In this document: positions 16,845 through 64,000 of the stretch, in pieces
Layout of the letters: each line of letters opens with the position of its first letter
How positions within the stretch are numbered: the first letter of the stretch is position 1
Notes under the pieces: model-generated
What the model saw: only the letters and a program-made list of their open reading frames with translations
Told to the model about the DNA's origin: nothing
The model's database searches: none
Made by a program: the position numbers and the translations under genes
Origin: Delphinus delphis
Lineage: Eukaryota; Chordata; Mammalia; Artiodactyla; Delphinidae
Reading direction: 5' to 3'
NCBI RefSeq assembly: GCF_949987515.2
Contig: NC_082683.1
Location: forward strand, 122,970,582-123,034,581
Length of the DNA: 64,000 nucleotides

Positions 16845-16884
<40 letters not shown>

Positions 16885-26394: not shown

Positions 26395-27824
26395 TTTGGT
26401 GTAAGACATTTTTGGAGGTCTGTGCCATGGGATTTTATTAAAGATAGAACCTGTTACATAGTACTTTAAGAACTTGAATAATAACTGCTTTGGAAAGGAT
26501 GGGTCTGCCTTTTCCTGAGCTTCATAATATTGTAAGATTCCAATATATAGTATTTTACAAGGGAGTTTTGGTTGTAGCAGACAATAGGAACTATTGTTAG
26601 AATCTGTTAGTTAATATAAGCAGATAGGACTCTTTTCAAACACTGCTCTTAAACTTCTACTTAAAGGACATTAAAGTTTGTAATAAATATTTGATAAATG
26701 TTGTCTAGCTCTAGGAGAAATGGGTGGGTTTTATATTGGTGAAATAGAATACAGTTACACAAAAAGTATCAGAATCTTAAATAAGCAGGCTGTTAATGAC
26801 TATCATGTTACTTTGAAGGCTAGAGTATAACCTTTATAGATACCCCATTCTCCTTGTTGCTTCCTGTCATAATTGTCCTTGGATTAATTCACTGTGACCT
26901 GCTGACTGAAACAAGGCAGCTTTTATTTAATCAACGAATATTTATTGAGCATCTCCTCTGTCCCTGTGAGCAGAGATTTGGGTTGAAGGAAGGACCTTTC
27001 CAAGAGAAGAAAATGGGCAAACCAGTGACTCGGGAATGAAAACATAGAGACCGTTTAAGAAAAAAACAGTGAGTCAGTTTGACGAGAGCAAAGAGCATCT
27101 GTAACTGTCGGATGACAGTGGTTCCTGAGAAAGGGAAAGGCAGGGTTATCCTTGAAAAGGAGAAACTTAACCGTGAAATAAGAGGAAAAGAGATCGCTGA
27201 GACCTTTGGAAATCAAGAGGAAAAGGGTGTAAAAAAGGCCTTTATGCTGCACATTATTTTAGTGAATGAGGTGGTGGTGAAACTTTGGGAGTAAATTGCG
27301 AACTTAGCAGACATATTCACTTACACCCTTATGTCACTACTTTGGAGTGGAATTTCATAAAAGAAACGTTGGAAATCATTCAAATTGAAGCTATATTTCA
27401 GGCTGCATAATGAATATTAATAGCGTAACAGTGTACATAGCTGTTCTGATAATTGTTAGATTTTTAGAATATGAATCTTCCTTTGCTAGAAAATTCACTC
27501 ATATTTTGGGATGATTTGGAGGAAGAGGACCAATAAGTATAAATAAAAACACATCCAAATAATGTCATTTTTAATAGTATAACTAGATTTGGAGACGTTT
27601 TTCCCTGGAGTCAGACTTTAATGGGTTTGTTGTTGTTGTTGTAGTTTGTTTTAATACTGTGGTACATTGTTAGTTTTTTAACTGCTTTCAATTAAAATAT
27701 GAACTCCAATGGAACATGTGTATATGAAGTAGGTACTCTGGAGATTAAGTTCTGAACAAGGAGCAAAACTAACTGGAAATTTAAAATTACTTGATTCCAC
27801 ATGGGCATGTAAGGACTTAGTTTT
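26395..27824. other. Non-coding, nothing recognised
   Basis: Intron-like sequence. The frames at 26854-27039 and 27079-27294 were inspected and lack splice or start support. A short (TTG)n tract occurs near 27630. Confidence 0.45.
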
Positions 27825-27917
27825 TTTGTTTTCTTATTGGAGTGCAGTTGACTTAAAATGTTAAGTTAGTTTCAGATGTACAGCAAAGTGATTCAGTTAT
27901 ACATATACATATATCTG
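27825..27917 (-). mobile_element. Older L1 3' end, interrupted by the L1 array
   Basis: 'TTCTTATTGGAGTGCAGTTG', 'TTAGTTTCAGATGTACAGCA' and 'AGTGATTCAGTTATACATAT' are the outermost 3' UTR of an older L1 on the minus strand. Homology stops at CATATATCTG, where the first array monomer begins with its poly(T). Its remainder should reappear at the right edge of the array, outside the window. Confidence 0.7.
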
Positions 27918-30701
27918 TTTTTTTAACATCTTTATTGGAGTATAATTGCTTTACAGTGGTGTGTTATTTTCTGCTTTATAATAAAGTGAACCAGTTATAC
28001 ATATATATATGTTCCCATATCTCTTCCCTCTTATGTCTCCCTCCCAACCCCCCTCCCTATGCCACCCCTCCAGGCGGTCACAAAGCACCAAGCTGATCTC
28101 ACAGTGCTATGCGGCTGCTTCCCACTAGCTATCTACCTTACGTTTGGTAGTGTATATATGTCCATGCCTCTCTCTCGCTTTGTCACAGCTCACCTTCCCC
28201 CTCCCCATATCCTCAAGTCCGTTCTCCAGTAGGTCTGTGTCTTTATTCCTGTCTTACCCCTAGGTTCTTCATGACATTTCTTTCCTTAAATTCCATATAT
28301 ATGTGTTAGCATACGGTATTTGTCTTTCTCTTTCTGACTTACTTCACGCTCTATGACAGATTCTAGTTGCATCCACTTCACAACAAATAACTCAGTTTCA
28401 TTTCTTTTTATGGCTGAATAATACTCCATTGTATATATGTGCCCCGTCCTCTTTATCCACTCATCTGTTGATGGACACTCAGGTTGCTTCCACGTCCTGG
28501 CTATTGTAAATAGAGCTGCAATGAACATTTTGGTACATGACCCTTTTTGAATTATGGTTTTCTCAGGGTATATGCCCAGCAGTGGGATTGCTGGGTCATA
28601 TGGTAGTTGTATTTGCAGTTTTTTAAGGAACCTCCATACTGTTCTCCATAGTGGCTGTACCAATTCACATTCCCACCAGCAGTGCAGGAGTGTTCCCTTT
28701 TCTCCACACCCTCTCCAGGATTTATTATTTCTAGATTTTTTGACGAAGGGCATTCTGACTGGTGTGAGGTGATATCTCATTGTAGTTTTGATTTGCATTT
28801 CCCTAATGATTAATGATGTTGAGCGTTCTTTCATGTGTTTGTTGGCAGTCTGTAATATCTTCTTTGGAGAAATGTCTATTTAGGTCTTCTGCCCATTTTT
28901 GGATTGGGTTGTTTGTTTTTTTGTTATTGAGCTGCATGAGCTGCTTGTAAATTCTGGAGATTAATCCTTTGTCAGTTGCTTCATTTGCAAATATTTTCTC
29001 CCACTCTGAGGGTTGTCTTTTGGTCTTGTTGATGGCTTCCTTTGCTGTGCAAAAGCTTGGAAGTTTCATTAGGTCCCATTTGTTTATTTTTGTTTTTATT
29101 TCCATTTCTCTAGGAGGTGGGGCACGAAGGATCTTGCTGTGATTTATGTCATAGAGTGTTCTGCCTATGTTTTCCTCTAAGACTTTGATAGTTTCTGGCC
29201 TTACATTTAGGTCTTGAATCCATTTTGAGCTTATTTTTGTGTATGGTGTTAGGGAGTGATCGAATCTCATACTTTTACACGGACCTGTCCAGTTTTCCCA
29301 GCACCACTTATTGAAGAGGCTGTCCTTTCTCCACTGTACATTCCTGCCTCCTTTATCAAAGATGAGGTGACCGTATGTGCGTGGGTTTATCTCTGGGCTT
29401 TCTGTCCTGTTCCATTGATCTGTGTTTCTGCTTTTGTGCCAGTAGCATACTCTCTTGATTACTGTAGCTTTGTAGTATAGTCTGAAGTCAGGGAGCCTGA
29501 TTCCTCCAGCTCCGTTTTTCGTTCTCAAGATTGCTTTGGCTATTCGGGGTCTTTTGTGTTTCCATATAAATTGTGAAATTTTTCGCTCTAGTTCTGTGAA
29601 AAATACCAATGGTAGTTTGATAGGGATTGCATTGAATCTGTAGATTGCTTTTGGTAGTAGAGTCATTTTCACAATGTTGATTCTTCCAATCCAAAAACAT
29701 GGTATATCTCTCCATCTATTTGTATCATCTTTAATTTCTTTCATCAGTGTCTTATAATTTTCTGCATACAGGTCTTCTGTCTCCTTAGGTAGGTTTATTC
29801 TTTTTGTTGCCATGGTAAATGGGAGTGTTTTCTTGATTTCACGTTCAGATTTTTCATCATTAGTGTATAGGAATGCCAGAGATTTCTGTGCATTAATTTT
29901 GTATCCTGCTGCTTTACCAGATTCATTGATTAGCTCTAGTAGTTTTCTGGTAGCATCTTTAGGATTCTCTATGTATAGTATCATGTCATCTGCAAACAGT
30001 GACAGCTTTACGTTCTTCTTTTCCGATTTGGATTCCTTTTATTTCCTTTTCTTCTCTGATTGCTGTGGCTAAAACTTCCAAAACTGTGTTGAATAAGAGT
30101 GGTGAGAGTGGGCAGCCTTGTCTTGTTCCTGATCGTAGTGGAAATGCTTTCAGTTTTTCACCATTGAGGACGATGTTGGCTGTGGATTTGTCATATATGG
30201 CCTTTATAATGTTGAGGAAAGTTCCCTCTATGCCTACTTTCTGCAGGGTTTTTTTATCATAAATGGGTGTTGAACTTGCTCGAAAGCTTTCTCTACATCT
30301 ATTGAGATGATCATATGGTTTTTCTCCTTCAGTTTGTTAGTATGGTTTATCACATTAATTCTTCTGCGTATATTGAAGAATCCTTGCATTCCTGGAAGAA
30401 ACCTCACTTGATCATGGTGTATGATCCTTTGAATGTGCTGTTGGATTCTGTTTGCTAGTATTTTGTTGAGGTGTTTTGCATCTGTGTTCATCAGTGACAT
30501 TGGCCTGTAGTTTTCTTTGTGGCATCCTTGTCTGGTTTTGGTATCGAGGTGATGTTGGCCTCGTAGAACGAGTTTGGGAGTGTTCCTCCCTCTGCTATAT
30601 TTTGGAAGAGTTTGAGAAGGATAGGTGTTAGCTCTTCTCTAAAGGTATGATAGAATTCGCCTGTGAAGCCGTCTGGTCCTGGGCTTTTGTTTGTTGGAAG
30701 A
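27918..30701 (-). mobile_element. Array monomer 1 (left edge, divergent 3' end)
   Basis: ORF2 pieces are at 28803-29984 and 28286-28834. From about 28480 rightward it is nearly identical to the other monomers. The outer part (27918 to about 28480) differs at dozens of positions. Examples are AAGTGAACCAG versus ACGTGAATCAG, GCACCAAGCTGATCTCACAG versus GCACCGAGCTGATCTCCCTG, and no CC between the 3' UTR end and the A-tail. It also keeps states shared with the dispersed L1 at 5070-11379, for example GTGGATTTGTCAT instead of GTGGGTTTGTCAT. It is 2784 bp long with a shorter tail. Confidence 0.95.
28286..29984 (-). pseudogene. ORF2 C-terminal half in monomer 1 (model for all monomers)
   Basis: The 393-codon frame (28803-29984) starts at the Met of [12 protein letters not shown], so the RT active-site box ([10 protein letters not shown]) straddles its start. 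It continues through the thumb and connection regions ([48 protein letters not shown]) and ends at [12 protein letters not shown] frameshift there moves the sequence to a second frame of 182 codons (28286-28834, overlap 32 bp). That frame holds the C-terminal block [22 protein letters not shown] region and [15 protein letters not shown]. The same frameshift is in every monomer. Upstream, RT motif A reads [12 protein letters not shown] in most monomers, with Glu where the family has Asp after AF. There is no endonuclease. In the family ORF2 copies L1 RNA into DNA, but this fragment cannot do so. Confidence 0.9.
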
Positions 30702-30721
30702 TTTTTTTTTTTTTGGAACAT
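30491..30721 (-). other. Junction-spanning open frame (monomer 1/2 boundary)
   Basis: A 76-codon frame whose ATG lies in the last bases of the 3' UTR of monomer 2. It then translates that monomer's poly(A) tail as lysines (MFQKKKN) and runs into the RT fragment [11 protein letters not shown] of monomer 1, ending TTGQCH. The same frame is present at all 12 junctions (33285, 36080, 38871, 41665, 44460, 47254, 50045, 52840, 55634, 58429 and 61223 are the left ends). Only two have FKKKK instead of FQKKK (38871 and 50045). It is a product of the fusion, and there is no evidence of translation. Confidence 0.6.
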
Positions 30722-33495
30722 CTTTATTGGGGTGTAATTGCTTTACAACGGTGTGTTAGTTTCTGCTCTACAGCAACGTGAATCAGTTACACATATACAG
30801 ACGTTCCCATATGTCTTCCCTCTTACGTCTCCCTCCCTCCCACCCTCCCTATCCCACATCTCCAGGCGGTCACAAAGCACCGAGCTGATCTCCCTGTGCT
30901 ATGCGGCTGCTTCCCACTAGCTATCTACCTTACGTTTGGTAGTGTATATATGTCCATGCCTCTCTCTCACTTTGTCACAGCTCACCCTTCCCCCTCCCCA
31001 TATCCTCAAGTCCGTTCTCCAGTAGGTCTGTGTCTTTATTCCTGTCTTACCCCTAGGTTCTTCATGACATTTTTGTTTTCTTAAATTCCATACATATGTG
31101 TTAGCATACGGTATTTGTCTTTCTCTTTCTGACTTACTTCACGCTCTATGACAGACTCTACTTCCGTACACCTCACTACAAATAACTCGATTTCGTTTCT
31201 CTTTATGGCTGAGTAATACTCCATTGTATATATGTGCCCCGTCTTCTTTATCCACTCATCTGTTGATGGACACTCAGGTTGCTTCCACGTCCTGGCTATT
31301 GTAAATAGAGCTGCAATGAACATTTTGGTACATGACCCTTTTTGAATTATGGTTTTCTCAGGGTATATGCCCAGCAGTGGGACTGCTGGGTCATATGGTA
31401 GTTGTATTTGCAGTTTTTTAAGGAACCTCCATACTGTTCTCCATAGTGGCTGTACCAATTCACATTCCCACCAGCAGTGCAGGAGTGTTCCCTTTTCTCC
31501 ACACCCTCTCCAGGATTTATTGTTTCTAGATTTTTTGACGATGGGCATTCTGACTGGTGTGAGGTGATATCTCATTGTAGTTTTGATTTGCATTTCCCTA
31601 ATGATTAATGATGTTGAGCGTTCTTTCATGTGTTTGTTGGCAGTCTGTAATATCTTCTTTGGAGAAATGTCTATTTAGGTCTTCTGCCCATTTTTGGATT
31701 GGGTTGTTTGTTTTTTTGTTATTGAGCTGCATGAGCTGCTTGTAAATTCTGGAGATTAATCCTTTGTCAGTTGCTTCATTTGCAAATATTTTCTCCCACT
31801 CTGAGGGTTGTCTTCTCGTCTTGTTGATGGCTTCCTTTGCTGTGCAAAAGCTTGGAAGTTTCATTAGGTCCCATTTGTTTATTTTTGTTTTTATTTCCAT
31901 TTCTCTAGGAGGTGGGGCACGAAGGATCTTGCTGTGATTTATGTCATAGAGTGTTCTGCCTATGTTTTCCTCTAAGACTTTGATAGTTTCTGGCCTTACA
32001 TTTAGGTCTTGAATCCATTTTGAGCTTATTTTTGTGTATGGTGTTAGGGAGTGATCGAATCTCATACTTTTACACGGACCTGTCCAGTTTTCCCAGCACC
32101 ACTTATTGAAGAGGCTGTCCTTTCTCCACTGTACATTCCTGCCTCCTTTATCAAAGATGAGGTGACCGTATGTGCGTGGGTTTATCTCTGGGCTTTCTGT
32201 CCTGTTCCATTGATCTGTGTTTCTGCTTTTGTGCCAGTAGCATACTCTCTTGATTACTGTAGCTTTGTAGTATAGTCTGAAGTCAGGGAGCCTGATTCCT
32301 CCAGCTCCGTTTTTCGTTCTCAAGATTGCTTTGGCTATTCGGGGTCTTTTGTGTTTCCATATAAATTGTGAAATTTTTCGCTCTAGTTCTGTGAAAAATA
32401 CCAATGGTAGTTTGATAGGGATTGCATTGAATCTGTAGATTGCTTTTGGTAGTAGAGTCATTTTCACAATGTTGATTCTTCCAATCCAAAAACATGGTAT
32501 ATCTCTCCATCTATTTGTATCATCTTTAATTTCTTTCATCAGTGTCTTATAATTTTCTGCATACAGGTCTTCTGTCTCCTTAGGTAGGTTTATTCTTTTT
32601 GTTGCCATGGTAAATGGGAGTGTTTTCTTGATTTCACGGTCAGATTTTTCATCATTAGTGTATAGGAATGCCAGAGATTTCTGTGCATTAATTTTGTATC
32701 CTGCTGCTTTACCAGATTCATTGATTAGCTCTAGTAGTTTTCTGGTAGCATCTTTAGGATTCTCTATGTATAGTATCATGTCATCTGCAAACAGTGACAG
32801 CTTTACTTTCTTCTTTTCCGATTTGGATTCCTTTTATTTCCTTTTCTTCTCTGATTGCTGTGGCTAAAACTTCCAAAACTGTGTTGAATAAGAGTGGTGA
32901 GAGTGGGCAGCCTTGTCTTGTTCCTGATCGTAGTGGAAATGCTTTCAGTTTTTCACCATTGAGGATGATGTTGGCTGTGGGTTTGTCATATATGGCCTTT
33001 ATAATGTTGAGGAAAGTTCCCTCTATGCCTACTTTCTGCAGGGTTTTTTATCATAAATGGGTGTTGAATTTGCTCGAAAGCTTTCTCTACATCTATTGAG
33101 ATGATCATATGGTTTTTCTCCTTCAGTTTGTTAGTATGGTTTATCACATTAATTCTTCTGCGTATATTGAAGAATCCTTGCATTCCTGGAAGAAACCTCA
33201 CTTGATCATGGTGTATGATCCTTTGAATGTGCTGTTGGATTCTGTTTGCTAGTATTTTGTTGAGGTGTTTTGCATCTGTGTTCATCAGTGACATTGGCCT
33301 GTAGTTTTCTTTGTGGCATCCTTGTCTGGTTTTGGTATCGAGGTGATGTTGGCCTCGTAGAACGAGTTTGGGAGTGTTCCTCCCTCTGCTATATTTTGGA
33401 AGAGTTTGAGAAGGATAGGTGTTAGCTCTTCTCTAAAGGTATGATAGAATTCGCCTGTGAAGCCGTCTGGTCCTGGGCTTTTGTTTGTTGGAAGA
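30702..33495 (-). mobile_element. Array monomer 2 (2794 bp)
   Basis: ORF2 pieces are at 31598-32779 and 31081-31629. Diagnostic states on the + strand are GTCTTCTCGTC, ACGGTCAG, GAGGATGATG, TTTACTTTC, a T6 run before ATCAT and GAATTTGCTCG. Confidence 0.95.
30715..30732 (-). promoter_or_regulatory. L1 poly(A) signal at a monomer 3' end
   Basis: TTTATT on the + strand (AATAAA on the minus strand) lies within GGAACATCTTTATTGGGG, about 8 bases before the A-tail. The same site recurs at the 3' end of every monomer. The monomers thus place a polyadenylation signal every 2.79 kb on the minus strand. Confidence 0.75.
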
Positions 33496-36290
33496 TTTTT
33501 TTTTTTTTGGAACATCTTTATTGGGGTGTAATTGCTTTACAACGGTGTGTTAGTTTCTGCTCTACAGCAACGTGAATCAGTTACACATATACAGACGTTC
33601 CCATATGTCTTCCCTCTTACGTCTCCCTCCCTCCCACCCTCCCTATCCCACATCTCCAGGCGGTCACAAAGCACCGAGCTGATCTCCCTGTGCTATGCGG
33701 CTGCTTCCCACTAGCTATCTACCTTACGTTTGGTAGTGTATATATGTCCATGCCTCTCTCTCACTTTGTCACAGCTCACCCTTCCCCCTCCCCATATCCT
33801 CAAGTCCGTTCTCCAGTAGGTCTGTGTCTTTATTCCTGTCTTACCCCTAGGTTCTTCATGACATTTTTGTTTTCTTAAATTCCATACATATGTGTTAGCA
33901 TACGGTATTTGTCTTTCTCTTTCTGACTTACTTCACGCTCTATGACAGACTCTACTTCCGTACACCTCACTACAAATAACTCGATTTCGTTTCTCTTTAT
34001 GGCTGAGTAATACTCCATTGTATATATGTGCCCCGTCTTCTTTATCCACTCATCTGTTGATGGACACTCAGGTTGCTTCCACGTCCTGGCTATTGTAAAT
34101 AGAGCTGCAATGAACATTTTGGTACATGACCCTTTTTGAATTATGGTTTTCTCAGGGTATATGCCCAGCAGTGGGACTGCTGGGTCATATGGTAGTTGTA
34201 TTTGCAGTTTTTTAAGGAACCTCCATACTGTTCTCCATAGTGGCTGTACCAATTCACATTCCCACCAGCAGTGCAGGAGTGTTCCCTTTTCTCCACACCC
34301 TCTCCAGGATTTATTGTTTCTAGATTTTTTGACGATGGGCATTCTGACTGGTGTGAGGTGATATCTCATTGTAGTTTTGATTTGCATTTCCCTAATGATT
34401 AATGATGTTGAGCGTTCTTTCATGTGTTTGTTGGCAGTCTGTAATATCTTCTTTGGAGAAATGTCTATTTAGGTCTTCTGCCCATTTTTGGATTGGGTTG
34501 TTTGTTTTTTTGTTATTGAGCTGCATGAGCTGCTTGTAAATTCTGGAGATTAATCCTTTGTCAGTTGCTTCATTTGCAAATATTTTCTCCCACTCTGAGG
34601 GTTGTCTTCTGGTCTTGTTGATGGCTTCCTTTGCTGTGCAAAAGCTTGGAAGTTTCATTAGGTCCCATTTGTTTATTTTTGTTTTTATTTCCATTTCTCT
34701 AGGAGGTGGGGCACGAAGGATCTTGCTGTGATTTATGTCATAGAGTGTTCTGCCTATGTTTTCCTCTAAGACTTTGATAGTTTCTGGCCTTACATTTAGG
34801 TCTTGAATCCATTTTGAGCTTATTTTTGTGTATGGTGTTAGGGAGTGATCGAATCTCATACTTTTACACGGACCTGTCCAGTTTTCCCAGCACCACTTAT
34901 TGAAGAGGCTGTCCTTTCTCCACTGTACATTCCTGCCTCCTTTATCAAAGATGAGGTGACCGTATGTGCGTGGGTTTATCTCTGGGCTTTCTGTCCTGTT
35001 CCATTGATCTGTGTTTCTGCTTTTGTGCCAGTAGCATACTCTCTTGATTACTGTAGCTTTGTAGTATAGTCTGAAGTCAGGGAGCCTGATTCCTCCAGCT
35101 CCGTTTTTCGTTCTCAAGATTGCTTTGGCTATTCGGGGTCTTTTGTGTTTCCATATAAATTGTGAAATTTTTCGCTCTAGTTCTGTGAAAAATACCAATG
35201 GTAGTTTGATAGGGATTGCATTGAATCTGTAGATTGCTTTTGGTAGTAGAGTCATTTTCACAATGTTGATTCTTCCAATCCAAAAACATGGTATATCGCT
35301 CCATCTATTTGTATCATCTTTAATTTCTTTCATCAGTGTCTTATAATTTTCTGCATACAGGTCTTCTGTCTCCTTAGGTAGGTTTATTCTTTTTGTTGCC
35401 ATGGTAAATGGGAGTGTTTTCTTGATTTCACGGTCAGATTTTTCATCATTAGTGTATAGGAATGCCAGAGATTTCTGTGCATTAATTTTGTATCCTGCTG
35501 CTTTACCAGATTCATTGATTAGCTCTAGTAGTTTTCTGGTAGCATCTTTAGGATTCTCTATGTATAGTATCATGTCATCTGCAAACAGTGACAGCTTTAC
35601 GTTCTTCTTTTCCGATTTGGATTCCTTTTATTTCCTTTTCTTCTCTGATTGCTGTGGCTAAAACTTCCAAAACTGTGTTGAATAAGAGTGGTGAGAGTGG
35701 GCAGCCTTGTCTTGTTCCTGATCGTAGTGGAAATGCTTTCAGTTTTTCACCATTGAGGACGATGTTGGCTGTGGGTTTGTCATATATGGCCTTTATAATG
35801 TTGAGGAAAGTTCCCTCTATGCCTACTTTCTGCAGGGTTTTTTTATCATAAATGGGTGTTGAACTTGCTCGAAAGCTTTCTCTACATCTATTGAGATGAT
35901 CATATGGTTTTTCTCCTTCAGTTTGTTAGTATGGTTTATCACATTAATTCTTCTGCGTATATTGAAGAATCCTTGCATTCCTGGAAGAAACCTCACTTGA
36001 TCATGGTGTATGATCCTTTGAATGTGCTGTTGGATTCTGTTTGCTAGTATTTTGTTGAGGTGTTTTGCATCTGTGTTCATCAGTGACATTGGCCTGTAGT
36101 TTTCTTTGTGGCATCCTTGTCTGGTTTTGGTATCGAGGTGATGTTGGCCTCGTAGAACGAGTTTGGGAGTGTTCCTCCCTCTGCTATATTTTGGAAGAGT
36201 TTGAGAAGGATAGGTGTTAGCTCTTCTCTAAAGGTATGATAGAATTCGCCTGTGAAGCCGTCTGGTCCTGGGCTTTTGTTTGTTGGAAGA
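33496..36290 (-). mobile_element. Array monomer 3 (2795 bp)
   Basis: ORF2 pieces are at 34392-35573 and 33875-34423. States are GTCTTCTGGTC, TATATCGCTCC (Ser for Arg in NRWRDIP), ACGGTCAG, GAGGACGATG, TTTACGTTC, a T7 run and GAACTTGCTCG. Confidence 0.95.
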
Positions 36291-39081
36291 TTTTTTTTTT
36301 TTTGGAACATCTTTATTGGGGTGTAATTGCTTTACAACGGTGTGTTAGTTTCTGCTCTACAGCAACGTGAATCAGTTACACATATACAGACGTTCCCATA
36401 TGTCTTCCCTCTTACGTCTCCCTCCCTCCCACCCTCCCTATCCCACATCTCCAGGCGGTCACAAAGCACCGAGCTGATCTCCCTGTGCTATGCGGCTGCT
36501 TCCCACTAGCTATCTACCTTACGTTTGGTAGTGTATATATGTCCATGCCTCTCTCTCACTTTGTCACAGCTCACCCTTCCCCCTCCCCATATCCTCAAGT
36601 CCGTTCTCCAGTAGGTCTGTGTCTTTATTCCTGTCTTACCCCTAGGTTCTTCATGACATTTTTGTTTTCTTAAATTCCATACATATGTGTTAGCATACGG
36701 TATTTGTCTTTCTCTTTCTGACTTACTTCACGCTCTATGACAGACTCTACTTCCGTACACCTCACTACAAATAACTCGATTTCGTTTCTCTTTATGGCTG
36801 AGTAATACTCCATTGTATATATGTGCCCCGTCTTCTTTATCCACTCATCTGTTGATGGACACTCAGGTTGCTTCCACGTCCTGGCTATTGTAAATAGAGC
36901 TGCAATGAACATTTTGGTACATGACCCTTTTTGAATTATGGTTTTCTCAGGGTATATGCCCAGCAGTGGGACTGCTGGGTCATATGGTAGTTGTATTTGC
37001 AGTTTTTTAAGGAACCTCCATACTGTTCTCCATAGTGGCTGTACCAATTCACATTCCCACCAGCAGTGCAGGAGTGTTCCCTTTTCTCCACACCCTCTCC
37101 AGGATTTATTGTTTCTAGATTTTTTGACGATGGGCATTCTGACTGGTGTGAGGTGATATCTCATTGTAGTTTTGATTTGCATTTCCCTAATGATTAATGA
37201 TGTTGAGCGTTCTTTCATGTGTTTGTTGGCAGTCTGTAATATCTTCTTTGGAGAAATGTCTATTTAGGTCTTCTGCCCATTTTTGGATTGGGTTGTTTGT
37301 TTTTTTGTTATTGAGCTGCATGAGCTGCTTGTAAATTCTGGAGATTAATCCTTTGTCAGTTGCTTCATTTGCAAATATTTTCTCCCACTCTGAGGGTTGT
37401 CTTCTGGTCTTGTTGATGGCTTCCTTTGCTGTGCAAAAGCTTGGAAGTTTCATTAGGTCCCATTTGTTTATTTTTGTTTTTATTTCCATTTCTCTAGGAG
37501 GTGGGGCACGAAGGATCTTGCTGTGATTTATGTCATAGAGTGTTCTGCCTATGTTTTCCTCTAAGACTTTGATAGTTTCTGGCCTTACATTTAGGTCTTG
37601 AATCCATTTTGAGCTTATTTTTGTGTATGGTGTTAGGGAGTGATCGAATCTCATACTTTTACACGGACCTGTCCAGTTTTCCCAGCACCACTTATTGAAG
37701 AGGCTGTCCTTTCTCCACTGTACATTCCTGCCTCCTTTATCAAAGATGAGGTGACCGTATGTGCGTGGGTTTATCTCTGGGCTTTCTGTCCTGTTCCATT
37801 GATCTGTGTTTCTGCTTTTGTGCCAGTAGCATACTCTCTTGATTACTGTAGCTTTGTAGTATAGTCTGAAGTCAGGGAGCCTGATTCCTCCAGCTCCGTT
37901 TTTCGTTCTCAAGATTGCTTTGGCTATTCGGGGTCTTTTGTGTTTCCATATAAATTGTGAAATTTTTCGCTCTAGTTCTGTGAAAAATACCAATGGTAGT
38001 TTGATAGGGATTGCATTGAATCTGTAGATTGCTTTTGGTAGTAGAGTCATTTTCACAATGTTGATTCTTCCAATCCAAAAACATGGTATATCTCTCCATC
38101 TATTTGTATCATCTTTAATTTCTTTCATCAGTGTCTTATAATTTTCTGCATACAGGTCTTCTGTCTCCTTAGGTAGGTTTATTCTTTTTGTTGCCATGGT
38201 AAATGGGAGTGTTTTCTTGATTTCACGGTCAGATTTTTCATCATTAGTGTATAGGAATGCCAGAGATTTCTGTGCATTAATTTTGTATCCTGCTGCTTTA
38301 CCAGATTCATTGATTAGCTCTAGTAGTTTTCTGGTAGCATCTTTAGGATTCTCTATGTATAGTATCATGTCATCTGCAAACAGTGACAGCTTTACTTTCT
38401 TCTTTTCCGATTTGGATTCCTTTTATTTCCTTTTCTTCTCTGATTGCTGTGGCTAAAACTTCCAAAACTGTGTTGAATAAGAGTGGTGAGAGTGGGCAGC
38501 CTTGTCTTGTTCCTGATCGTAGTGGAAATGCTTTCAGTTTTTCACCATTGAGGACGATGTTGGCTGTGGGTTTGTCATATATGGCCTTTATAATGTTGAG
38601 GAAAGTTCCCTCTATGCCTACTTTCTGCAGGGTTTTTTATCATAAATGGGTGTTGAATTTGCTCGAAAGCTTTCTCTACATCTATTGAGATGATCATATG
38701 GTTTTTCTCCTTCAGTTTGTTAGTATGGTTTATCACATTAATTCTGCGTATATTGAAGAATCCTTGCATTCCTGGAAGAAACCTCACTTGATCATGGTGT
38801 ATGATCCTTTGAATGTGCTGTTGGATTCTGTTTGCTAGTATTTTGTTGAGGCTTTTTGCATCTGTGTTCATCAGTGACATTGGCCTGTAGTTTTCTTTGT
38901 GGCATCCTTGTCTGGTTTTGGTATCGAGGTGATGTTGGCCTCGTAGAACGAGTTTGGGAGTGTTCCTCCCTCTGCTATATTTTGGAAGAGTTTGAGAAGG
39001 ATAGGTGTTAGCTCTTCTCTAAAGGTATGATAGAATTCGCCTGTGAAGCCGTCTGGTCCTGGGCTTTTGTTTGTTGGAAGA
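36291..39081 (-). mobile_element. Array monomer 4 (2791 bp, 3-bp deletion)
   Basis: ORF2 pieces are at 37187-38368 and 36670-37218. It has GTCTTCTGGTC, ACGGTCAG, GAGGACGATG and a T6 run. Its distinctive change is ATTAATTCTGCG (TTC missing, near 38743), removing one Arg from the RRRINVINH segment. From there rightward it belongs to a distinct variant block that continues into monomer 5. Confidence 0.95.
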
Positions 39082-53050: not shown

Positions 53051-55844
53051 TTTTTTTTTTTTTGGAACATCTTTATTGGGGTGTAATTGCTTTACAACGG
53101 TGTGTTAGTTTCTGCTCTACAGCAACGTGAATCAGTTACACATATACAGACGTTCCCATATGTCTTCCCTCTTACGTCTCCCTCCCTCCCACCCTCCCTA
53201 TCCCACATCTCCAGGCGGTCACAAAGCACCGAGCTGATCTCCCTGTGCTATGCGGCTGCTTCCCACTAGCTATCTACCTTACGTTTGGTAGTGTATATAT
53301 GTCCATGCCTCTCTCTCACTTTGTCACAGCTCACCCTTCCCCCTCCCCATATCCTCAAGTCCGTTCTCCAGTAGGTCTGTGTCTTTATTCCTGTCTTACC
53401 CCTAGGTTCTTCATGACATTTTTGTTTTCTTAAATTCCATACATATGTGTTAGCATACGGTATTTGTCTTTCTCTTTCTGACTTACTTCACGCTCTATGA
53501 CAGACTCTACTTCCGTACACCTCACTACAAATAACTCGATTTCGTTTCTCTTTATGGCTGAGTAATACTCCATTGTATATATGTGCCCCGTCTTCTTTAT
53601 CCACTCATCTGTTGATGGACACTCAGGTTGCTTCCACGTCCTGGCTATTGTAAATAGAGCTGCAATGAACATTTTGGTACATGACCCTTTTTGAATTATG
53701 GTTTTCTCAGGGTATATGCCCAGCAGTGGGACTGCTGGGTCATATGGTAGTTGTATTTGCAGTTTTTTAAGGAACCTCCATACTGTTCTCCATAGTGGCT
53801 GTACCAATTCACATTCCCACCAGCAGTGCAGGAGTGTTCCCTTTTCTCCACACCCTCTCCAGGATTTATTGTTTCTAGATTTTTTGACGATGGGCATTCT
53901 GACTGGTGTGAGGTGATATCTCATTGTAGTTTTGATTTGCATTTCCCTAATGATTAATGATGTTGAGCGTTCTTTCATGTGTTTGTTGGCAGTCTGTAAT
54001 ATCTTCTTTGGAGAAATGTCTATTTAGGTCTTCTGCCCATTTTTGGATTGGGTTGTTTGTTTTTTTGTTATTGAGCTGCATGAGCTGCTTGTAAATTCTG
54101 GAGATTAATCCTTTGTCAGTTGCTTCATTTGCAAATATTTTCTCCCACTCTGAGGGTTGTCTTCTGGTCTTGTTGATGGCTTCCTTTGCTGTGCAAAAGC
54201 TTGGAAGTTTCATTAGGTCCCATTTGTTTATTTTTGTTTTTATTTCCATTTCTCTAGGAGGTGGGGCACGAAGGATCTTGCTGTGATTTATGTCATAGAG
54301 TGTTCTGCCTATGTTTTCCTCTAAGACTTTGATAGTTTCTGGCCTTACATTTAGGTCTTGAATCCATTTTGAGCTTATTTTTGTGTATGGTGTTAGGGAG
54401 TGATCGAATCTCATACTTTTACACGGACCTGTCCAGTTTTCCCAGCACCACTTATTGAAGAGGCTGTCCTTTCTCCACTGTACATTCCTGCCTCCTTTAT
54501 CAAAGATGAGGTGACCGTATGTGCGTGGGTTTATCTCTGGGCTTTCTGTCCTGTTCCATTGATCTGTGTTTCTGCTTTTGTGCCAGTAGCATACTCTCTT
54601 GATTACTGTAGCTTTGTAGTATAGTCTGAAGTCAGGGAGCCTGATTCCTCCAGCTCCGTTTTTCGTTCTCAAGATTGCTTTGGCTATTCGGGGTCTTTTG
54701 TGTTTCCATATAAATTGTGAAATTTTTCGCTCTAGTTCTGTGAAAAATACCAATGGTAGTTTGATAGGGATTGCATTGAATCTGTAGATTGCTTTTGGTA
54801 GTAGAGTCATTTTCACAATGTTGATTCTTCCAATCCAAAAACATGGTATATCTCTCCATCTATTTGTATCATCTTTAATTTCTTTCATCAGTGTCTTATA
54901 ATTTTCTGCATACAGGTCTTCTGTCTCCTTAGGTAGGTTTATTCTTTTTGTTGCCATGGTAAATGGGAGTGTTTTCTTGATTTCACGGTCAGATTTTTCA
55001 TCATTAGTGTATAGGAATGCCAGAGATTTCTGTGCATTAATTTTGTATCCTGCTGCTTTACCAGATTCATTGATTAGCTCTAGTAGTTTTCTGGTAGCAT
55101 CTTTAGGATTCTCTATGTATAGTATCATGTCATCTGCAAACAGTGACAGCTTTACTTTCTTCTTTTCCGATTTGGATTCCTTTTATTTCCTTTTCTTCTC
55201 TGATTGCTGTGGCTAAAACTTCCAAAACTGTGTTGAATAAGAGTGGTGAGAGTGGGCAGCCTTGTCTTGTTCCTGATCGTAGTGGAAATGCTTTCAGTTT
55301 TTCACCATTGAGGATGATGTTGGCTGTGGGTTTGTCATATATGGCCTTTATAATGTTGAGGAAAGTTCCCTCTATGCCTACTTTCTGCAGGGTTTTTTAT
55401 CATAAATGGGTGTTGAATTTGCTCGAAAGCTTTCTCTACATCTATTGAGATGATCATATGGTTTTTCTCCTTCAGTTTGTTAGTATGGTTTATCACATTA
55501 ATTCTTCTGCGTATATTGAAGAATCCTTGCATTCCTGGAAGAAACCTCACTTGATCATGGTGTATGATCCTTTGAATGTGCTGTTGGATTCTGTTTGCTA
55601 GTATTTTGTTGAGGTGTTTTGCATCTGTGTTCATCAGTGACATTGGCCTGTAGTTTTCTTTGTGGCATCCTTGTCTGGTTTTGGTATCGAGGTGATGTTG
55701 GCCTCGTAGAACGAGTTTGGGAGTGTTCCTCCCTCTGCTATATTTTGGAAGAGTTTGAGAAGGATAGGTGTTAGCTCTTCTCTAAAGGTATGATAGAATT
55801 CGCCTGTGAAGCCGTCTGGTCCTGGGCTTTTGTTTGTTGGAAGA
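53051..55844 (-). mobile_element. Array monomer 10 (2794 bp)
   Basis: ORF2 pieces are at 53947-55128 and 53430-53978. States are GTCTTCTGGTC, ACGGTCAG, GAGGATGATG, TTTACTTTC and a T6 run. Confidence 0.95.
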
Positions 55845-58639
55845 TTTTTTTTTTTTTGGAACATCTTTATTGGGGTGTAATTGCTTTACAACGGTGTGTT
55901 AGTTTCTGCTCTACAGCAACGTGAATCAGTTACACATATACAGACGTTCCCATATGTCTTCCCTCTTACGTCTCCCTCCCTCCCACCCTCCCTATCCCAC
56001 ATCTCCAGGCGGTCACAAAGCACCGAGCTGATCTCCCTGTGCTATGCGGCTGCTTCCCACTAGCTATCTACCTTACGTTTGGTAGTGTATATATGTCCAT
56101 GCCTCTCTCTCACTTTGTCACAGCTCACCCTTCCCCCTCCCCATATCCTCAAGTCCGTTCTCCAGTAGGTCTGTGTCTTTATTCCTGTCTTACCCCTAGG
56201 TTCTTCATGACATTTTTGTTTTCTTAAATTCCATACATATGTGTTAGCATACGGTATTTGTCTTTCTCTTTCTGACTTACTTCACGCTCTATGACAGACT
56301 CTACTTCCGTACACCTCACTACAAATAACTCGATTTCGTTTCTCTTTATGGCTGAGTAATACTCCATTGTATATATGTGCCCCGTCTTCTTTATCCACTC
56401 ATCTGTTGATGGACACTCAGGTTGCTTCCACGTCCTGGCTATTGTAAATAGAGCTGCAATGAACATTTTGGTACATGACCCTTTTTGAATTATGGTTTTC
56501 TCAGGGTATATGCCCAGCAGTGGGACTGCTGGGTCATATGGTAGTTGTATTTGCAGTTTTTTAAGGAACCTCCATACTGTTCTCCATAGTGGCTGTACCA
56601 ATTCACATTCCCACCAGCAGTGCAGGAGTGTTCCCTTTTCTCCACACCCTCTCCAGGATTTATTGTTTCTAGATTTTTTGACGATGGGCATTCTGACTGG
56701 TGTGAGGTGATATCTCATTGTAGTTTTGATTTGCATTTCCCTAATGATTAATGATGTTGAGCGTTCTTTCATGTGTTTGTTGGCAGTCTGTAATATCTTC
56801 TTTGGAGAAATGTCTATTTAGGTCTTCTGCCCATTTTTGGATTGGGTTGTTTGTTTTTTTGTTATTGAGCTGCATGAGCTGCTTGTAAATTCTGGAGATT
56901 AATCCTTTGTCAGTTGCTTCATTTGCAAATATTTTCTCCCACTCTGAGGGTTGTCTTCTCGTCTTGTTGATGGCTTCCTTTGCTGTGCAAAAGCTTGGAA
57001 GTTTCATTAGGTCCCATTTGTTTATTTTTGTTTTTATTTCCATTTCTCTAGGAGGTGGGGCACGAAGGATCTTGCTGTGATTTATGTCATAGAGTGTTCT
57101 GCCTATGTTTTCCTCTAAGACTTTGATAGTTTCTGGCCTTACATTTAGGTCTTGAATCCATTTTGAGCTTATTTTTGTGTATGGTGTTAGGGAGTGATCG
57201 AATCTCATACTTTTACACGGACCTGTCCAGTTTTCCCAGCACCACTTATTGAAGAGGCTGTCCTTTCTCCACTGTACATTCCTGCCTCCTTTATCAAAGA
57301 TGAGGTGACCGTATGTGCGTGGGTTTATCTCTGGGCTTTCTGTCCTGTTCCATTGATCTGTGTTTCTGCTTTTGTGCCAGTAGCATACTCTCTTGATTAC
57401 TGTAGCTTTGTAGTATAGTCTGAAGTCAGGGAGCCTGATTCCTCCAGCTCCGTTTTTCGTTCTCAAGATTGCTTTGGCTATTCGGGGTCTTTTGTGTTTC
57501 CATATAAATTGTGAAATTTTTCGCTCTAGTTCTGTGAAAAATACCAATGGTAGTTTGATAGGGATTGCATTGAATCTGTAGATTGCTTTTGGTAGTAGAG
57601 TCATTTTCACAATGTTGATTCTTCCAATCCAAAAACATGGTATATCGCTCCATCTATTTGTATCATCTTTAATTTCTTTCATCAGTGTCTTATAATTTTC
57701 TGCATACAGGTCTTCTGTCTCCTTAGGTAGGTTTATTCTTTTTGTTGCCATGGTAAATGGGAGTGTTTTCTTGATTTCACGTTCAGATTTTTCATCATTA
57801 GTGTATAGGAATGCCAGAGATTTCTGTGCATTAATTTTGTATCCTGCTGCTTTACCAGATTCATTGATTAGCTCTAGTAGTTTTCTGGTAGCATCTTTAG
57901 GATTCTCTATGTATAGTATCATGTCATCTGCAAACAGTGACAGCTTTACGTTCTTCTTTTCCGATTTGGATTCCTTTTATTTCCTTTTCTTCTCTGATTG
58001 CTGTGGCTAAAACTTCCAAAACTGTGTTGAATAAGAGTGGTGAGAGTGGGCAGCCTTGTCTTGTTCCTGATCGTAGTGGAAATGCTTTCAGTTTTTCACC
58101 ATTGAGGACGATGTTGGCTGTGGGTTTGTCATATATGGCCTTTATAATGTTGAGGAAAGTTCCCTCTATGCCTACTTTCTGCAGGGTTTTTTTATCATAA
58201 ATGGGTGTTGAACTTGCTCGAAAGCTTTCTCTACATCTATTGAGATGATCATATGGTTTTTCTCCTTCAGTTTGTTAGTATGGTTTATCACATTAATTCT
58301 TCTGCGTATATTGAAGAATCCTTGCATTCCTGGAAGAAACCTCACTTGATCATGGTGTATGATCCTTTGAATGTGCTGTTGGATTCTGTTTGCTAGTATT
58401 TTGTTGAGGTGTTTTGCATCTGTGTTCATCAGTGACATTGGCCTGTAGTTTTCTTTGTGGCATCCTTGTCTGGTTTTGGTATCGAGGTGATGTTGGCCTC
58501 GTAGAACGAGTTTGGGAGTGTTCCTCCCTCTGCTATATTTTGGAAGAGTTTGAGAAGGATAGGTGTTAGCTCTTCTCTAAAGGTATGATAGAATTCGCCT
58601 GTGAAGCCGTCTGGTCCTGGGCTTTTGTTTGTTGGAAGA
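55845..58639 (-). mobile_element. Array monomer 11 (2795 bp)
   Basis: ORF2 pieces are at 56741-57922 and 56224-56772. States are GTCTTCTCGTC, TATATCGCTCC, ACGTTCAG, GAGGACGATG and a T7 run. Confidence 0.95.
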
Positions 58640-61433
58640 TTTTTTTTTTTTTGGAACATCTTTATTGGGGTGTAATTGCTTTACAACGGTGTGTTAGTTT
58701 CTGCTCTACAGCAACGTGAATCAGTTACACATATACAGACGTTCCCATATGTCTTCCCTCTTACGTCTCCCTCCCTCCCACCCTCCCTATCCCACATCTC
58801 CAGGCGGTCACAAAGCACCGAGCTGATCTCCCTGTGCTATGCGGCTGCTTCCCACTAGCTATCTACCTTACGTTTGGTAGTGTATATATGTCCATGCCTC
58901 TCTCTCACTTTGTCACAGCTCACCCTTCCCCCTCCCCATATCCTCAAGTCCGTTCTCCAGTAGGTCTGTGTCTTTATTCCTGTCTTACCCCTAGGTTCTT
59001 CATGACATTTTTGTTTTCTTAAATTCCATACATATGTGTTAGCATACGGTATTTGTCTTTCTCTTTCTGACTTACTTCACGCTCTATGACAGACTCTACT
59101 TCCGTACACCTCACTACAAATAACTCGATTTCGTTTCTCTTTATGGCTGAGTAATACTCCATTGTATATATGTGCCCCGTCTTCTTTATCCACTCATCTG
59201 TTGATGGACACTCAGGTTGCTTCCACGTCCTGGCTATTGTAAATAGAGCTGCAATGAACATTTTGGTACATGACCCTTTTTGAATTATGGTTTTCTCAGG
59301 GTATATGCCCAGCAGTGGGACTGCTGGGTCATATGGTAGTTGTATTTGCAGTTTTTTAAGGAACCTCCATACTGTTCTCCATAGTGGCTGTACCAATTCA
59401 CATTCCCACCAGCAGTGCAGGAGTGTTCCCTTTTCTCCACACCCTCTCCAGGATTTATTGTTTCTAGATTTTTTGACGATGGGCATTCTGACTGGTGTGA
59501 GGTGATATCTCATTGTAGTTTTGATTTGCATTTCCCTAATGATTAATGATGTTGAGCGTTCTTTCATGTGTTTGTTGGCAGTCTGTAATATCTTCTTTGG
59601 AGAAATGTCTATTTAGGTCTTCTGCCCATTTTTGGATTGGGTTGTTTGTTTTTTTGTTATTGAGCTGCATGAGCTGCTTGTAAATTCTGGAGATTAATCC
59701 TTTGTCAGTTGCTTCATTTGCAAATATTTTCTCCCACTCTGAGGGTTGTCTTCTCGTCTTGTTGATGGCTTCCTTTGCTGTGCAAAAGCTTGGAAGTTTC
59801 ATTAGGTCCCATTTGTTTATTTTTGTTTTTATTTCCATTTCTCTAGGAGGTGGGGCACGAAGGATCTTGCTGTGATTTATGTCATAGAGTGTTCTGCCTA
59901 TGTTTTCCTCTAAGACTTTGATAGTTTCTGGCCTTACATTTAGGTCTTGAATCCATTTTGAGCTTATTTTTGTGTATGGTGTTAGGGAGTGATCGAATCT
60001 CATACTTTTACACGGACCTGTCCAGTTTTCCCAGCACCACTTATTGAAGAGGCTGTCCTTTCTCCACTGTACATTCCTGCCTCCTTTATCAAAGATGAGG
60101 TGACCGTATGTGCGTGGGTTTATCTCTGGGCTTTCTGTCCTGTTCCATTGATCTGTGTTTCTGCTTTTGTGCCAGTAGCATACTCTCTTGATTACTGTAG
60201 CTTTGTAGTATAGTCTGAAGTCAGGGAGCCTGATTCCTCCAGCTCCGTTTTTCGTTCTCAAGATTGCTTTGGCTATTCGGGGTCTTTTGTGTTTCCATAT
60301 AAATTGTGAAATTTTTCGCTCTAGTTCTGTGAAAAATACCAATGGTAGTTTGATAGGGATTGCATTGAATCTGTAGATTGCTTTTGGTAGTAGAGTCATT
60401 TTCACAATGTTGATTCTTCCAATCCAAAAACATGGTATATCTCTCCATCTATTTGTATCATCTTTAATTTCTTTCATCAGTGTCTTATAATTTTCTGCAT
60501 ACAGGTCTTCTGTCTCCTTAGGTAGGTTTATTCTTTTTGTTGCCATGGTAAATGGGAGTGTTTTCTTGATTTCACGGTCAGATTTTTCATCATTAGTGTA
60601 TAGGAATGCCAGAGATTTCTGTGCATTAATTTTGTATCCTGCTGCTTTACCAGATTCATTGATTAGCTCTAGTAGTTTTCTGGTAGCATCTTTAGGATTC
60701 TCTATGTATAGTATCATGTCATCTGCAAACAGTGACAGCTTTACTTTCTTCTTTTCCGATTTGGATTCCTTTTATTTCCTTTTCTTCTCTGATTGCTGTG
60801 GCTAAAACTTCCAAAACTGTGTTGAATAAGAGTGGTGAGAGTGGGCAGCCTTGTCTTGTTCCTGATCGTAGTGGAAATGCTTTCAGTTTTTCACCATTGA
60901 GGATGATGTTGGCTGTGGGTTTGTCATATATGGCCTTTATAATGTTGAGGAAAGTTCCCTCTATGCCTACTTTCTGCAGGGTTTTTTATCATAAATGGGT
61001 GTTGAATTTGCTCGAAAGCTTTCTCTACATCTATTGAGATGATCATATGGTTTTTCTCCTTCAGTTTGTTAGTATGGTTTATCACATTAATTCTTCTGCG
61101 TATATTGAAGAATCCTTGCATTCCTGGAAGAAACCTCACTTGATCATGGTGTATGATCCTTTGAATGTGCTGTTGGATTCTGTTTGCTAGTATTTTGTTG
61201 AGGTGTTTTGCATCTGTGTTCATCAGTGACATTGGCCTGTAGTTTTCTTTGTGGCATCCTTGTCTGGTTTTGGTATCGAGGTGATGTTGGCCTCGTAGAA
61301 CGAGTTTGGGAGTGTTCCTCCCTCTGCTATATTTTGGAAGAGTTTGAGAAGGATAGGTGTTAGCTCTTCTCTAAAGGTATGATAGAATTCGCCTGTGAAG
61401 CCGTCTGGTCCTGGGCTTTTGTTTGTTGGAAGA
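58640..61433 (-). mobile_element. Array monomer 12 (2794 bp)
   Basis: ORF2 pieces are at 59536-60717 and 59019-59567. States are GTCTTCTCGTC, ACGGTCAG, GAGGATGATG and a T6 run. It has the same set of these states as monomer 2. Confidence 0.95.
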
Positions 61434-64000
61434 TTTTTTTTTTTTTGGAACATCTTTATTGGGGTGTAATTGCTTTACAACGGTGTGTTAGTTTCTGCTC
61501 TACAGCAACGTGAATCAGTTACACATATACAGACGTTCCCATATGTCTTCCCTCTTACGTCTCCCTCCCTCCCACCCTCCCTATCCCACATCTCCAGGCG
61601 GTCACAAAGCACCGAGCTGATCTCCCTGTGCTATGCGGCTGCTTCCCACTAGCTATCTACCTTACGTTTGGTAGTGTATATATGTCCATGCCTCTCTCTC
61701 ACTTTGTCACAGCTCACCCTTCCCCCTCCCCATATCCTCAAGTCCGTTCTCCAGTAGGTCTGTGTCTTTATTCCTGTCTTACCCCTAGGTTCTTCATGAC
61801 ATTTTTGTTTTCTTAAATTCCATACATATGTGTTAGCATACGGTATTTGTCTTTCTCTTTCTGACTTACTTCACGCTCTATGACAGACTCTACTTCCGTA
61901 CACCTCACTACAAATAACTCGATTTCGTTTCTCTTTATGGCTGAGTAATACTCCATTGTATATATGTGCCCCGTCTTCTTTATCCACTCATCTGTTGATG
62001 GACACTCAGGTTGCTTCCACGTCCTGGCTATTGTAAATAGAGCTGCAATGAACATTTTGGTACATGACCCTTTTTGAATTATGGTTTTCTCAGGGTATAT
62101 GCCCAGCAGTGGGACTGCTGGGTCATATGGTAGTTGTATTTGCAGTTTTTTAAGGAACCTCCATACTGTTCTCCATAGTGGCTGTACCAATTCACATTCC
62201 CACCAGCAGTGCAGGAGTGTTCCCTTTTCTCCACACCCTCTCCAGGATTTATTGTTTCTAGATTTTTTGACGATGGGCATTCTGACTGGTGTGAGGTGAT
62301 ATCTCATTGTAGTTTTGATTTGCATTTCCCTAATGATTAATGATGTTGAGCGTTCTTTCATGTGTTTGTTGGCAGTCTGTAATATCTTCTTTGGAGAAAT
62401 GTCTATTTAGGTCTTCTGCCCATTTTTGGATTGGGTTGTTTGTTTTTTTGTTATTGAGCTGCATGAGCTGCTTGTAAATTCTGGAGATTAATCCTTTGTC
62501 AGTTGCTTCATTTGCAAATATTTTCTCCCACTCTGAGGGTTGTCTTCTGGTCTTGTTGATGGCTTCCTTTGCTGTGCAAAAGCTTGGAAGTTTCATTAGG
62601 TCCCATTTGTTTATTTTTGTTTTTATTTCCATTTCTCTAGGAGGTGGGGCACGAAGGATCTTGCTGTGATTTATGTCATAGAGTGTTCTGCCTATGTTTT
62701 CCTCTAAGACTTTGATAGTTTCTGGCCTTACATTTAGGTCTTGAATCCATTTTGAGCTTATTTTTGTGTATGGTGTTAGGGAGTGATCGAATCTCATACT
62801 TTTACACGGACCTGTCCAGTTTTCCCAGCACCACTTATTGAAGAGGCTGTCCTTTCTCCACTGTACATTCCTGCCTCCTTTATCAAAGATGAGGTGACCG
62901 TATGTGCGTGGGTTTATCTCTGGGCTTTCTGTCCTGTTCCATTGATCTGTGTTTCTGCTTTTGTGCCAGTAGCATACTCTCTTGATTACTGTAGCTTTGT
63001 AGTATAGTCTGAAGTCAGGGAGCCTGATTCCTCCAGCTCCGTTTTTCGTTCTCAAGATTGCTTTGGCTATTCGGGGTCTTTTGTGTTTCCATATAAATTG
63101 TGAAATTTTTCGCTCTAGTTCTGTGAAAAATACCAATGGTAGTTTGATAGGGATTGCATTGAATCTGTAGATTGCTTTTGGTAGTAGAGTCATTTTCACA
63201 ATGTTGATTCTTCCAATCCAAAAACATGGTATATCGCTCCATCTATTTGTATCATCTTTAATTTCTTTCATCAGTGTCTTATAATTTTCTGCATACAGGT
63301 CTTCTGTCTCCTTAGGTAGGTTTATTCTTTTTGTTGCCATGGTAAATGGGAGTGTTTTCTTGATTTCACGTTCAGATTTTTCATCATTAGTGTATAGGAA
63401 TGCCAGAGATTTCTGTGCATTAATTTTGTATCCTGCTGCTTTACCAGATTCATTGATTAGCTCTAGTAGTTTTCTGGTAGCATCTTTAGGATTCTCTATG
63501 TATAGTATCATGTCATCTGCAAACAGTGACAGCTTTACGTTCTTCTTTTCCGATTTGGATTCCTTTTATTTCCTTTTCTTCTCTGATTGCTGTGGCTAAA
63601 ACTTCCAAAACTGTGTTGAATAAGAGTGGTGAGAGTGGGCAGCCTTGTCTTGTTCCTGATCGTAGTGGAAATGCTTTCAGTTTTTCACCATTGAGGACGA
63701 TGTTGGCTGTGGGTTTGTCATATATGGCCTTTATAATGTTGAGGAAAGTTCCCTCTATGCCTACTTTCTGCAGGGTTTTTTTATCATAAATGGGTGTTGA
63801 ACTTGCTCGAAAGCTTTCTCTACATCTATTGAGATGATCATATGGTTTTTCTCCTTCAGTTTGTTAGTATGGTTTATCACATTAATTCTTCTGCGTATAT
63901 TGAAGAATCCTTGCATTCCTGGAAGAAACCTCACTTGATCATGGTGTATGATCCTTTGAATGTGCTGTTGGATTCTGTTTGCTAGTATTTTGTTGAGGTG
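61434..64000 (-). mobile_element. Array monomer 13 (cut by the window end)
   Basis: ORF2 pieces are at 62330-63511 and 61813-62361. States are GTCTTCTGGTC, TATATCGCTCC, ACGTTCAG, GAGGACGATG and T7. The last 230 bases or so of the expected unit are outside the window, so the array continues at least to the next junction and perhaps much further. Confidence 0.93.

Follow-up and report, generated by a model that had tools for sequence, protein, structure and literature searches.

An L1 macrosatellite in the Delphinus delphis genome and its probable origin from a nested L1 insertion

A 64,000-bp stretch of the Delphinus delphis genome (C1:122970582-123034581, contig C1 being NC_082683.1; hereafter the window) contains a large part of a macrosatellite whose unit is the 3' part of an L1 element, joined within ORF2 to the poly(A) end of the next copy. 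The array continues beyond the window, and at least two further arrays in the genome have their junction at the same ORF2 site. We propose, with a probability of about three in four, that nested L1 insertion, unequal crossing-over and subsequent homogenisation made the C1 array. The argument draws on the diverged edges of the array, the letters of its junction, unexpanded nests elsewhere in the genome and a four-unit array in which the crossovers can still be read.

The C1 array and its junction

The assembled sequence holds 17 head-to-tail units of ~2.79 kb with 16 junctions, running from position 27918 to ~75407 in extended coordinates, in which the window numbering is carried on past 64000 into the adjacent C1 sequence. 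The L1s are in minus-strand orientation. Unit lengths of 2791-2795 bp recur, and unit 1 is shorter at 2784 bp. Thirteen units fall in the window, the thirteenth being interrupted where the window stops, along with 12 junctions that share one ORF2/poly(A) point. Pairs among the core units (units 2-16) differ by 0-19 substitutions, with a mean of 0.29%, and units 2 and 12 by none. With a kilobase unit in many near-identical head-to-tail copies, the C1 array is a real L1 macrosatellite; dispersed, independent L1 insertions are ruled out by the 16 junctions at one shared point. The initial annotation of the window had proposed just such an array in place of dispersed L1s, citing 13 units of 2791-2795 bp and 12 identical junctions, and apart from the length of the first unit this is borne out. 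Its estimate of 36 kb or longer stands insofar as the array outruns the window; unit 1, however, is a chimera rather than a plain copy.

Searches of the genome covered 2.66 Gb in 630 contigs. Among the best 40 of 8197 candidates for a 601-bp slice of the unit, 17 places match at 99-100%, all within C1:122,999,581-123,044,884, the next-best place is dispersed and matches at 96%, and the 2.79-kb unit thus has one genomic place at 99-100%. The array lies within a 185-Mb contig, and there are no Ns between 27001 and 79000. Within the core, 28 variable alignment columns are combined as mosaics, which does not look like a simple assembly loop; the variants of unit pair 4-5, for example, are seen again in units 8-9 and partly in 15-16.

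The unit carries the 3' part of ORF2, the L1 3' end and a T-run on the plus strand. Compared with 11 dispersed L1s, the core has 93-95% identity, and unit 2 is 92.4% identical over 2812 aligned positions to L1A, a dispersed L1 of the window that lies outside the array. Each of the 13 units in the window contains the same pair of overlapping open reading frames of 182 and 393 codons. The longer matches mammalian L1 reverse transcriptase proteins, and no Pfam family was found for either. A coding or domesticated repeat is rejected, given that ORF2 is split among frames in both translated units (2 and 3) and that the short pair recurs in 13 of 13.

Both ends of the array depart from the core. Unit 1 differs from it at 45 of 532 sites within positions 1-543 and at 7 of 2251 sites afterwards; unit 17 differs at 7 of 2551 sites before position 2552 and at 23 of 243 afterwards. 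In midpoint-rooted segment trees, the first segment separates unit 1 from units 2-17 (support 100), the last separates unit 17 from units 1-16 (support 87), and the middle one unites all 17 units (support 65). Unit 17 passes through the ORF2 site, reading GGAAGCTTTTTATTCAC, into an L1 5' half that is ~640 bp shorter than L1A in the ORF1 region and reaches the L1 5' end near 78633. When the left flank is joined to the right flank (78633 on), the two are collinear with window positions 4149-4513 (80%) and with two places in another sampled stretch, L020 (76%), both old L1s. The whole structure therefore occupies a single interruption of an old L1.

At the ORF2 end, each unit reads GGAAGATTTTT and is followed directly by the T-run and 3' end of the next L1. 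The junction letters in the window are T13-GG-AACATC in 10 of 12 cases and T14-G-AACATC in the other two. Uninterrupted L1s continue at this point into AAT[C/G]AC; L1A reads GGAAGATTTTTAATGAC, and GATTTTTAA is kept by five of the seven dispersed L1s that reach the site. L1A has 42 T-runs of at least five letters, two of which are followed by AA: its own 3' end and the ORF2 site. TTTT/AA is the consensus of the L1 endonuclease, and the C1 junction has such a site with poly(A) on the matching side. Judged by its letters, the ORF2 end of the unit appears to be a TTTTT/AA target site joined to the poly(A) of another L1. The plain 5' truncation assumed in the initial annotation is unsupported, and the same junction occurs at 13 other loci.

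Sibling nests and two further arrays

The exact junction pattern has 89 matches genome-wide (16 on C1, 7 on C6, 3 on C22 and 63 dispersed), and a reversed control has none. The outer side of the pattern comprises 10 letters, and L1 sequence was confirmed there for one match (C22:87210781, locus L013). A chimeric DNA query for the site, with 40 matches scored, spans the junction in 2 of 24 non-array matches, the rest being ordinary L1s. A 181-bp junction query, with the best 40 of 4647 candidates considered, gives 41 matches, comprising the 16 array junctions, 13 that span the junction elsewhere (L012-L024, 78-90% identity to the query) and 12 that are one-sided.

Stretches at all 13 of these loci were taken and mapped against a full-length L1. 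Six (L013, L014, L016, L019, L023 and L024) consist of an outer 3' part, an inner L1 and the outer L1 resuming at the same ORF2 position. The inner L1s mostly differ in length. At seven junctions in these six loci, 8-15 bp are exactly duplicated (TGTTGGAAGATTTTT is one example); directly after the duplication, four of the seven have AATCACAG. Nests with a resuming outer L1 and target-site duplications indicate that this type of junction does arise by L1-into-L1 insertion. Five further loci (L012, L015, L017, L018 and L021) have a long inner L1 that runs towards or past the mapped L1 end, with no outer resumption within the stretch taken. The 13 loci resemble C1 in having the same ORF2/poly(A) junction in the same orientation; unlike C1, none shows an array within the stretch taken. 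We also note that L023 (C22:76751500-76761450) holds, within 10 kb, three related copies, ~85% alike, of an L1 with a ~109-bp nested piece at the ORF2 site, which reads as an old local amplification or copying of one nest. At L015 and L022, more than one L1 3' end follows in succession at or near the ORF2 junction, as though nests were stacked.

The C1 array is not the sole one of its kind, since C22 and C6 carry at least two more at the same ORF2 site. Consensus sequences of the units (C1 core units 2-16 of 17, three units of C6 and three of the four of C22) are 91.6-92.9% identical between arrays, and the junction letters differ by array; on these grounds the three arrays look independent in origin.

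The C22 array has three junction matches at spacings of 2799 and 2800 bp, making four units (stretches L041 and L043), and is short enough to be read unit by unit. Over positions 1-1819, unit 1 stands apart from units 2, 3 and 4, which match one another; between 1913 and ~2600 the split is units 1 and 3 versus units 2 and 4; beyond ~2600, up to the junction, units 1-3 are alike and unit 4 is the odd one out. The only exceptions are two lone differences of unit 4 between 2201 and 2600. By this pattern, unit 1 would be of outer type throughout and unit 4 of inner type, continuing through GGAAGATTTTTAATTACAG into an L1 5' half. Unit 2 would be inner-type to ~2600 and outer-type from there, and unit 3 inner-type to a point between 1819 and 1913 and outer-type afterwards. 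Each of the three units that precede a junction has an outer-type end, and each of the three that follow one has an inner-type start.

The C6 array is longer, with seven junction matches over ~74 kb (81.465-81.539 Mb), five of the six spacings being near multiples of 2.79-2.80 kb. We read 15.8 kb of it in two samples (L042, 8.6 kb, and L044, 7.2 kb), which are tandem throughout, and the array is still running at 81,544,700. The L042 sample has a dimeric arrangement: its units y1 and y3 have the same sequence, from which y2 departs at 52 of 2791 positions. L044 is less regular. The one spacing not close to a multiple measures 21,118 bp (C6:81464787-81485905), which might be due to an insertion, a deletion or a second block.

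Origin of the array and bias of its substitutions

We envisage that an inner L1 inserted, in the same orientation, into the ORF2 of an outer L1 at the TTTTT/AA endonuclease site. Such a nest would place two homologous L1 3' stretches of 2.8 kb in tandem, joined at the poly(A) of the inner L1. Each unequal crossover between the outer and the inner stretch would add exactly one period, because the period is given by how far the site lies from the L1 3' end, and would produce units of inner type at their start and outer type at their end. In C1, more rounds of unequal exchange, together with gene conversion favouring G/C, would have raised the number of units to 17 and made the core uniform, with an outer-type left edge (the first 543 bp of unit 1) and an inner-type right edge (the last 243 bp of unit 17) left over. 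With the outer L1 lying to the left and the inner one to the right, such crossing-over predicts a diverged left end of unit 1 and a diverged right end of unit 17. The C1 junction itself was probably made by insertion, and a single exchange, either with the unoccupied allele or between the two 5' halves on the same chromosome, would account for the loss of both the inner 5' end and the second 5' half.

Several observations weigh against this origin. A nest alone predicts an outer 5' half and a duplication after the last L1; neither the outer 5' half nor a clear duplication is found there in C1 or C22, and no target-site duplication above 5 bp surrounds the whole C1 element. The duplication and resuming outer L1 expected of target-primed reverse transcription are thus present at 6 of the 13 sibling loci and missing from both arrays, and two of the siblings, L020 and L022, have no clean outer resumption. 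Furthermore, seven derived sites are common to the left end of unit 1 and the core (21 and 19 private), the figure being one to three for the ten dispersed copies with data. The two L1s of C1, outer and inner, may therefore be relatives, or sequence may have passed between them. Finally, the 3' 2.8 kb of the L1 in L034 contains two TTTTAA sites, and the second has 77 exact pattern matches, likewise with an outer side of 10 letters, against 63 dispersed ones at the ORF2 site. The ORF2 site is accordingly rejected as a strong hotspot, and insertion rate alone does not single it out; no evenly spaced cluster is apparent by eye among the 77. Arrays may form at the ORF2 site because the shared arm there is ~2.8 kb, as opposed to ~0.7 kb.

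The missing second 5' half is more easily accounted for by simple tandem duplication of one L1, in which microhomology or template switching linked its poly(A) to the T-run in ORF2, followed by drift at the edges and homogenisation of the core. Such a duplication needs no extra step for the single interruption of the old L1, and it fits the seven derived sites shared by unit 1 and the core. It leaves unexplained, however, the TTTTT/AA target, given that one T-run of the 42 in L1A offers AA besides its own 3' end, as well as the 13 other junction loci, six of them with target-site duplications. Nor does it anticipate that C22 contains two L1 types, differing throughout positions 1-1819 and recombined among four units, or that the last part of unit 17 shares no derived site with the core (10 and 9 private). 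We regard simple duplication as unlikely. An appreciably smaller chance falls to a nest elsewhere whose outer and inner stretches recombined into a 2.8-kb circle, the circle or its rolling-circle product then integrating by homology into a resident L1. Diverged edges from the resident L1 and a junction at the site would follow from this, as would the lack of a second 5' half and of a duplication at C1. However, units 1-4 of C22 are graded in the way that local crossovers between two adjacent L1s would produce, and no donor nest identical to the C1 junction appears, the best non-array match of the 40 scored being 90%. Multiplication of a few units by the assembler would suit the zero substitutions between units 2 and 12, but it is highly improbable in view of the mosaic of 28 columns, the divergence of both edges, the lack of Ns and the existence of three arrays of one design in different places with different junctions.

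Changes specific to the core were polarised against the 11 dispersed L1s at sites with at least four dispersed copies and 75% agreement; L025, L027, L028, L029 and L030 cover the unit partly, the 3' piece of L030 was unused, and BLAST pieces under 60-100 bp were left out. The core has 76 changes from A/T to G/C (W>S) and 16 in the opposite direction (S>W), as against 259:274 when each dispersed L1 is compared with the rest and the results are summed (Fisher p 4e-10). Without CpG sites the ratios are 55:15 and 212:221 (Fisher p 4e-6), and CpG decay in the outgroups is therefore rejected as the cause. The unhomogenised edges of the array show 11:14 and 6:6. Among the few segregating core sites, 13 W>S variants have a mean frequency of 0.62 and 4 S>W variants 0.18 (Mann-Whitney p 0.016), with units that are non-independent and one site polarised by L1A alone.

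This excess over the controls suggests GC-biased gene conversion in the C1 core. It is uneven, however, at 28:0 in positions 544-1500 and 8:5 in 1501-2000; C22 has no W>S excess (39:52, p 0.36) and C6 is borderline (36:22, p 0.054). A very young array like C22 would not be expected to show an excess, a reading made after the fact. The bias could instead be the inherited make-up of a particular L1 lineage, as might be suspected from the lack of an excess in C22, from a core branch that is in part older than the array and from a dispersed set picked by similarity over 601 bp. We consider this somewhat unlikely, though it deserves more weight than any of the rival origins above. The best dispersed 601-bp match among the best 40 of 8197 candidates is 96%, with no close lineage mate among them; the unhomogenised edges lack the bias; and derived W>S variants have a higher mean frequency within the array than S>W ones, albeit at few sites.

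Other satellites, significance and features of the window

The human macrosatellites DXZ4 and D4Z4 likewise have a kilobase unit in tens of copies at one or few loci; to our knowledge their units, unlike that of C1, are not L1 3' fragments. Closer at hand is the heterochromatic common cetacean satellite, with a monomer of about 1.58 or 1.75 kb, put at 1.6-1.75 kb in the initial annotation, which is said to go back to Kapitonov, Holmquist and Jurka in 1998. Four of six sampled unplaced contigs carry a tandem satellite of 1,575-1,580 bp (L035-L038, the first 4.5 kb of C60, C130, C240 and C360), which by size and L1 content we take to be the delphinid form of that family. One review likens the common cetacean satellite to the 3'-terminal portion of L1 (PMC9659126), another lists it as L1-derived (PMC6947457), and cetacean satellites are described as having units above one kilobase (PMC5615363). 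It is thus like the C1 array in being tandem and having L1 3' sequence in its unit. The initial annotation had suggested that the C1 monomer is a separate or ancestral form and proposed a comparison with the known satellite. No match over the whole length is found with the genome's own 1.58-kb satellite: the nhmmer alignment is confined to unit positions 232-897, and the best 395 bp reach 62-63% in blastn. Unlike the 2.79-kb C1 unit, this satellite stops short of both the L1 3' end and the ORF2 site, and it is present on four of six sampled contigs, whereas the C1 unit is at one place (best 40 of 8197). Taking it to represent the family, the C1 array would be separate from the common cetacean satellite. 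The ancestral alternative is rejected, both for the restricted alignment and because the core is 93-95% identical to dispersed L1s. The PROsat satellite of Phodopus roborovskii also has similarity to L1 ORF2, given as 88% over a small region only (PMC9659126); the whole C1 unit is a standard L1 3' part. Among the sampled contigs, L038 has an additional 1,749-bp offset between satellite copies, and L040 (C600:1-4500, on an 18-kb contig) carries a 167-168-bp tandem satellite with 60% GC and no L1 match in the blastn comparison.

L1-derived satellites are already known, and the value of the present case lies in its surviving stages, the change from transposable element to satellite being usually inferred from old, decayed arrays. 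If the proposed origin is true, the stages stand side by side in one genome: single nests, a four-unit array whose crossovers can still be followed, a 17-unit array undergoing GC-biased conversion and, longer still, an array whose period is dimeric. The surviving edges, the unexpanded sibling nests and the four-unit intermediate make insertion, crossover and homogenisation each testable, and in the C1 core, probable GC-biased conversion can be studied with internal controls in an array that is non-coding. A broader proposition, to which we give even odds, is that satellites are repeatedly seeded where one L1 inserts into another at an internal endonuclease site, with the distance from site to 3' end setting the period. 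If nests at this site were general seeds, one would expect to meet arrays with a period near 2.8 kb in other genomes where this L1 family is abundant. We found no account of nested L1s seeding arrays in the open-access literature, which is weak evidence of novelty.

Coordinates of the L1 features in the window (extended coordinates continue the window numbering past 64000)
Feature	Position	Strand	Remarks
L1A, dispersed L1 used for comparison	5064..10683	-	Outside array; ORF2 site uninterrupted (~7859)
Left flank	27823..27917	.	Older L1 3' UTR piece split by the structure; continuation at ~78633 extended
Unit 1	27918..30701	-	Chimera (outer-type 3' end + core sequence); 2784 bp
Left edge of unit 1	27918..28460	-	Different-type L1 3' end, read as outer L1 (45/532 sites; tree)
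Two overlapping open reading frames, 182 and 393 aa	28286..29984	-	Different frames; broken ORF2 C-terminal part
First junction in window	30691..30720	-	GGAAGATTTTT joined to T-run/L1 3' end
Units 2-12 of core	30702..61433	-	2791-2795 bp each
T-run starts of other junctions in window	33496, 36291, 39082, 41876, 44671, 47465, 50256, 53051, 55845, 58640, 61434	-	
Unit 13	61434..64000	-	Cut by window end; units 14-17 and L1 5' half beyond, to ~78633 extended

Two other features of the window lie to the left of the array. A 91%-identical L1 3' part (11387-12995) abuts a 78%-identical one (13000-14804), the two overlapping in unit positions; 11387-14804 is probably a younger L1 inserted in an older one. 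In addition, an interspersed repeat of ~150-220 bp is present in five copies on both strands, 73-91% alike (16863-17074, 20158-20369, 20705-20926, 21672-21820 and 26205-26385), which we presume to be the CHR short interspersed element.

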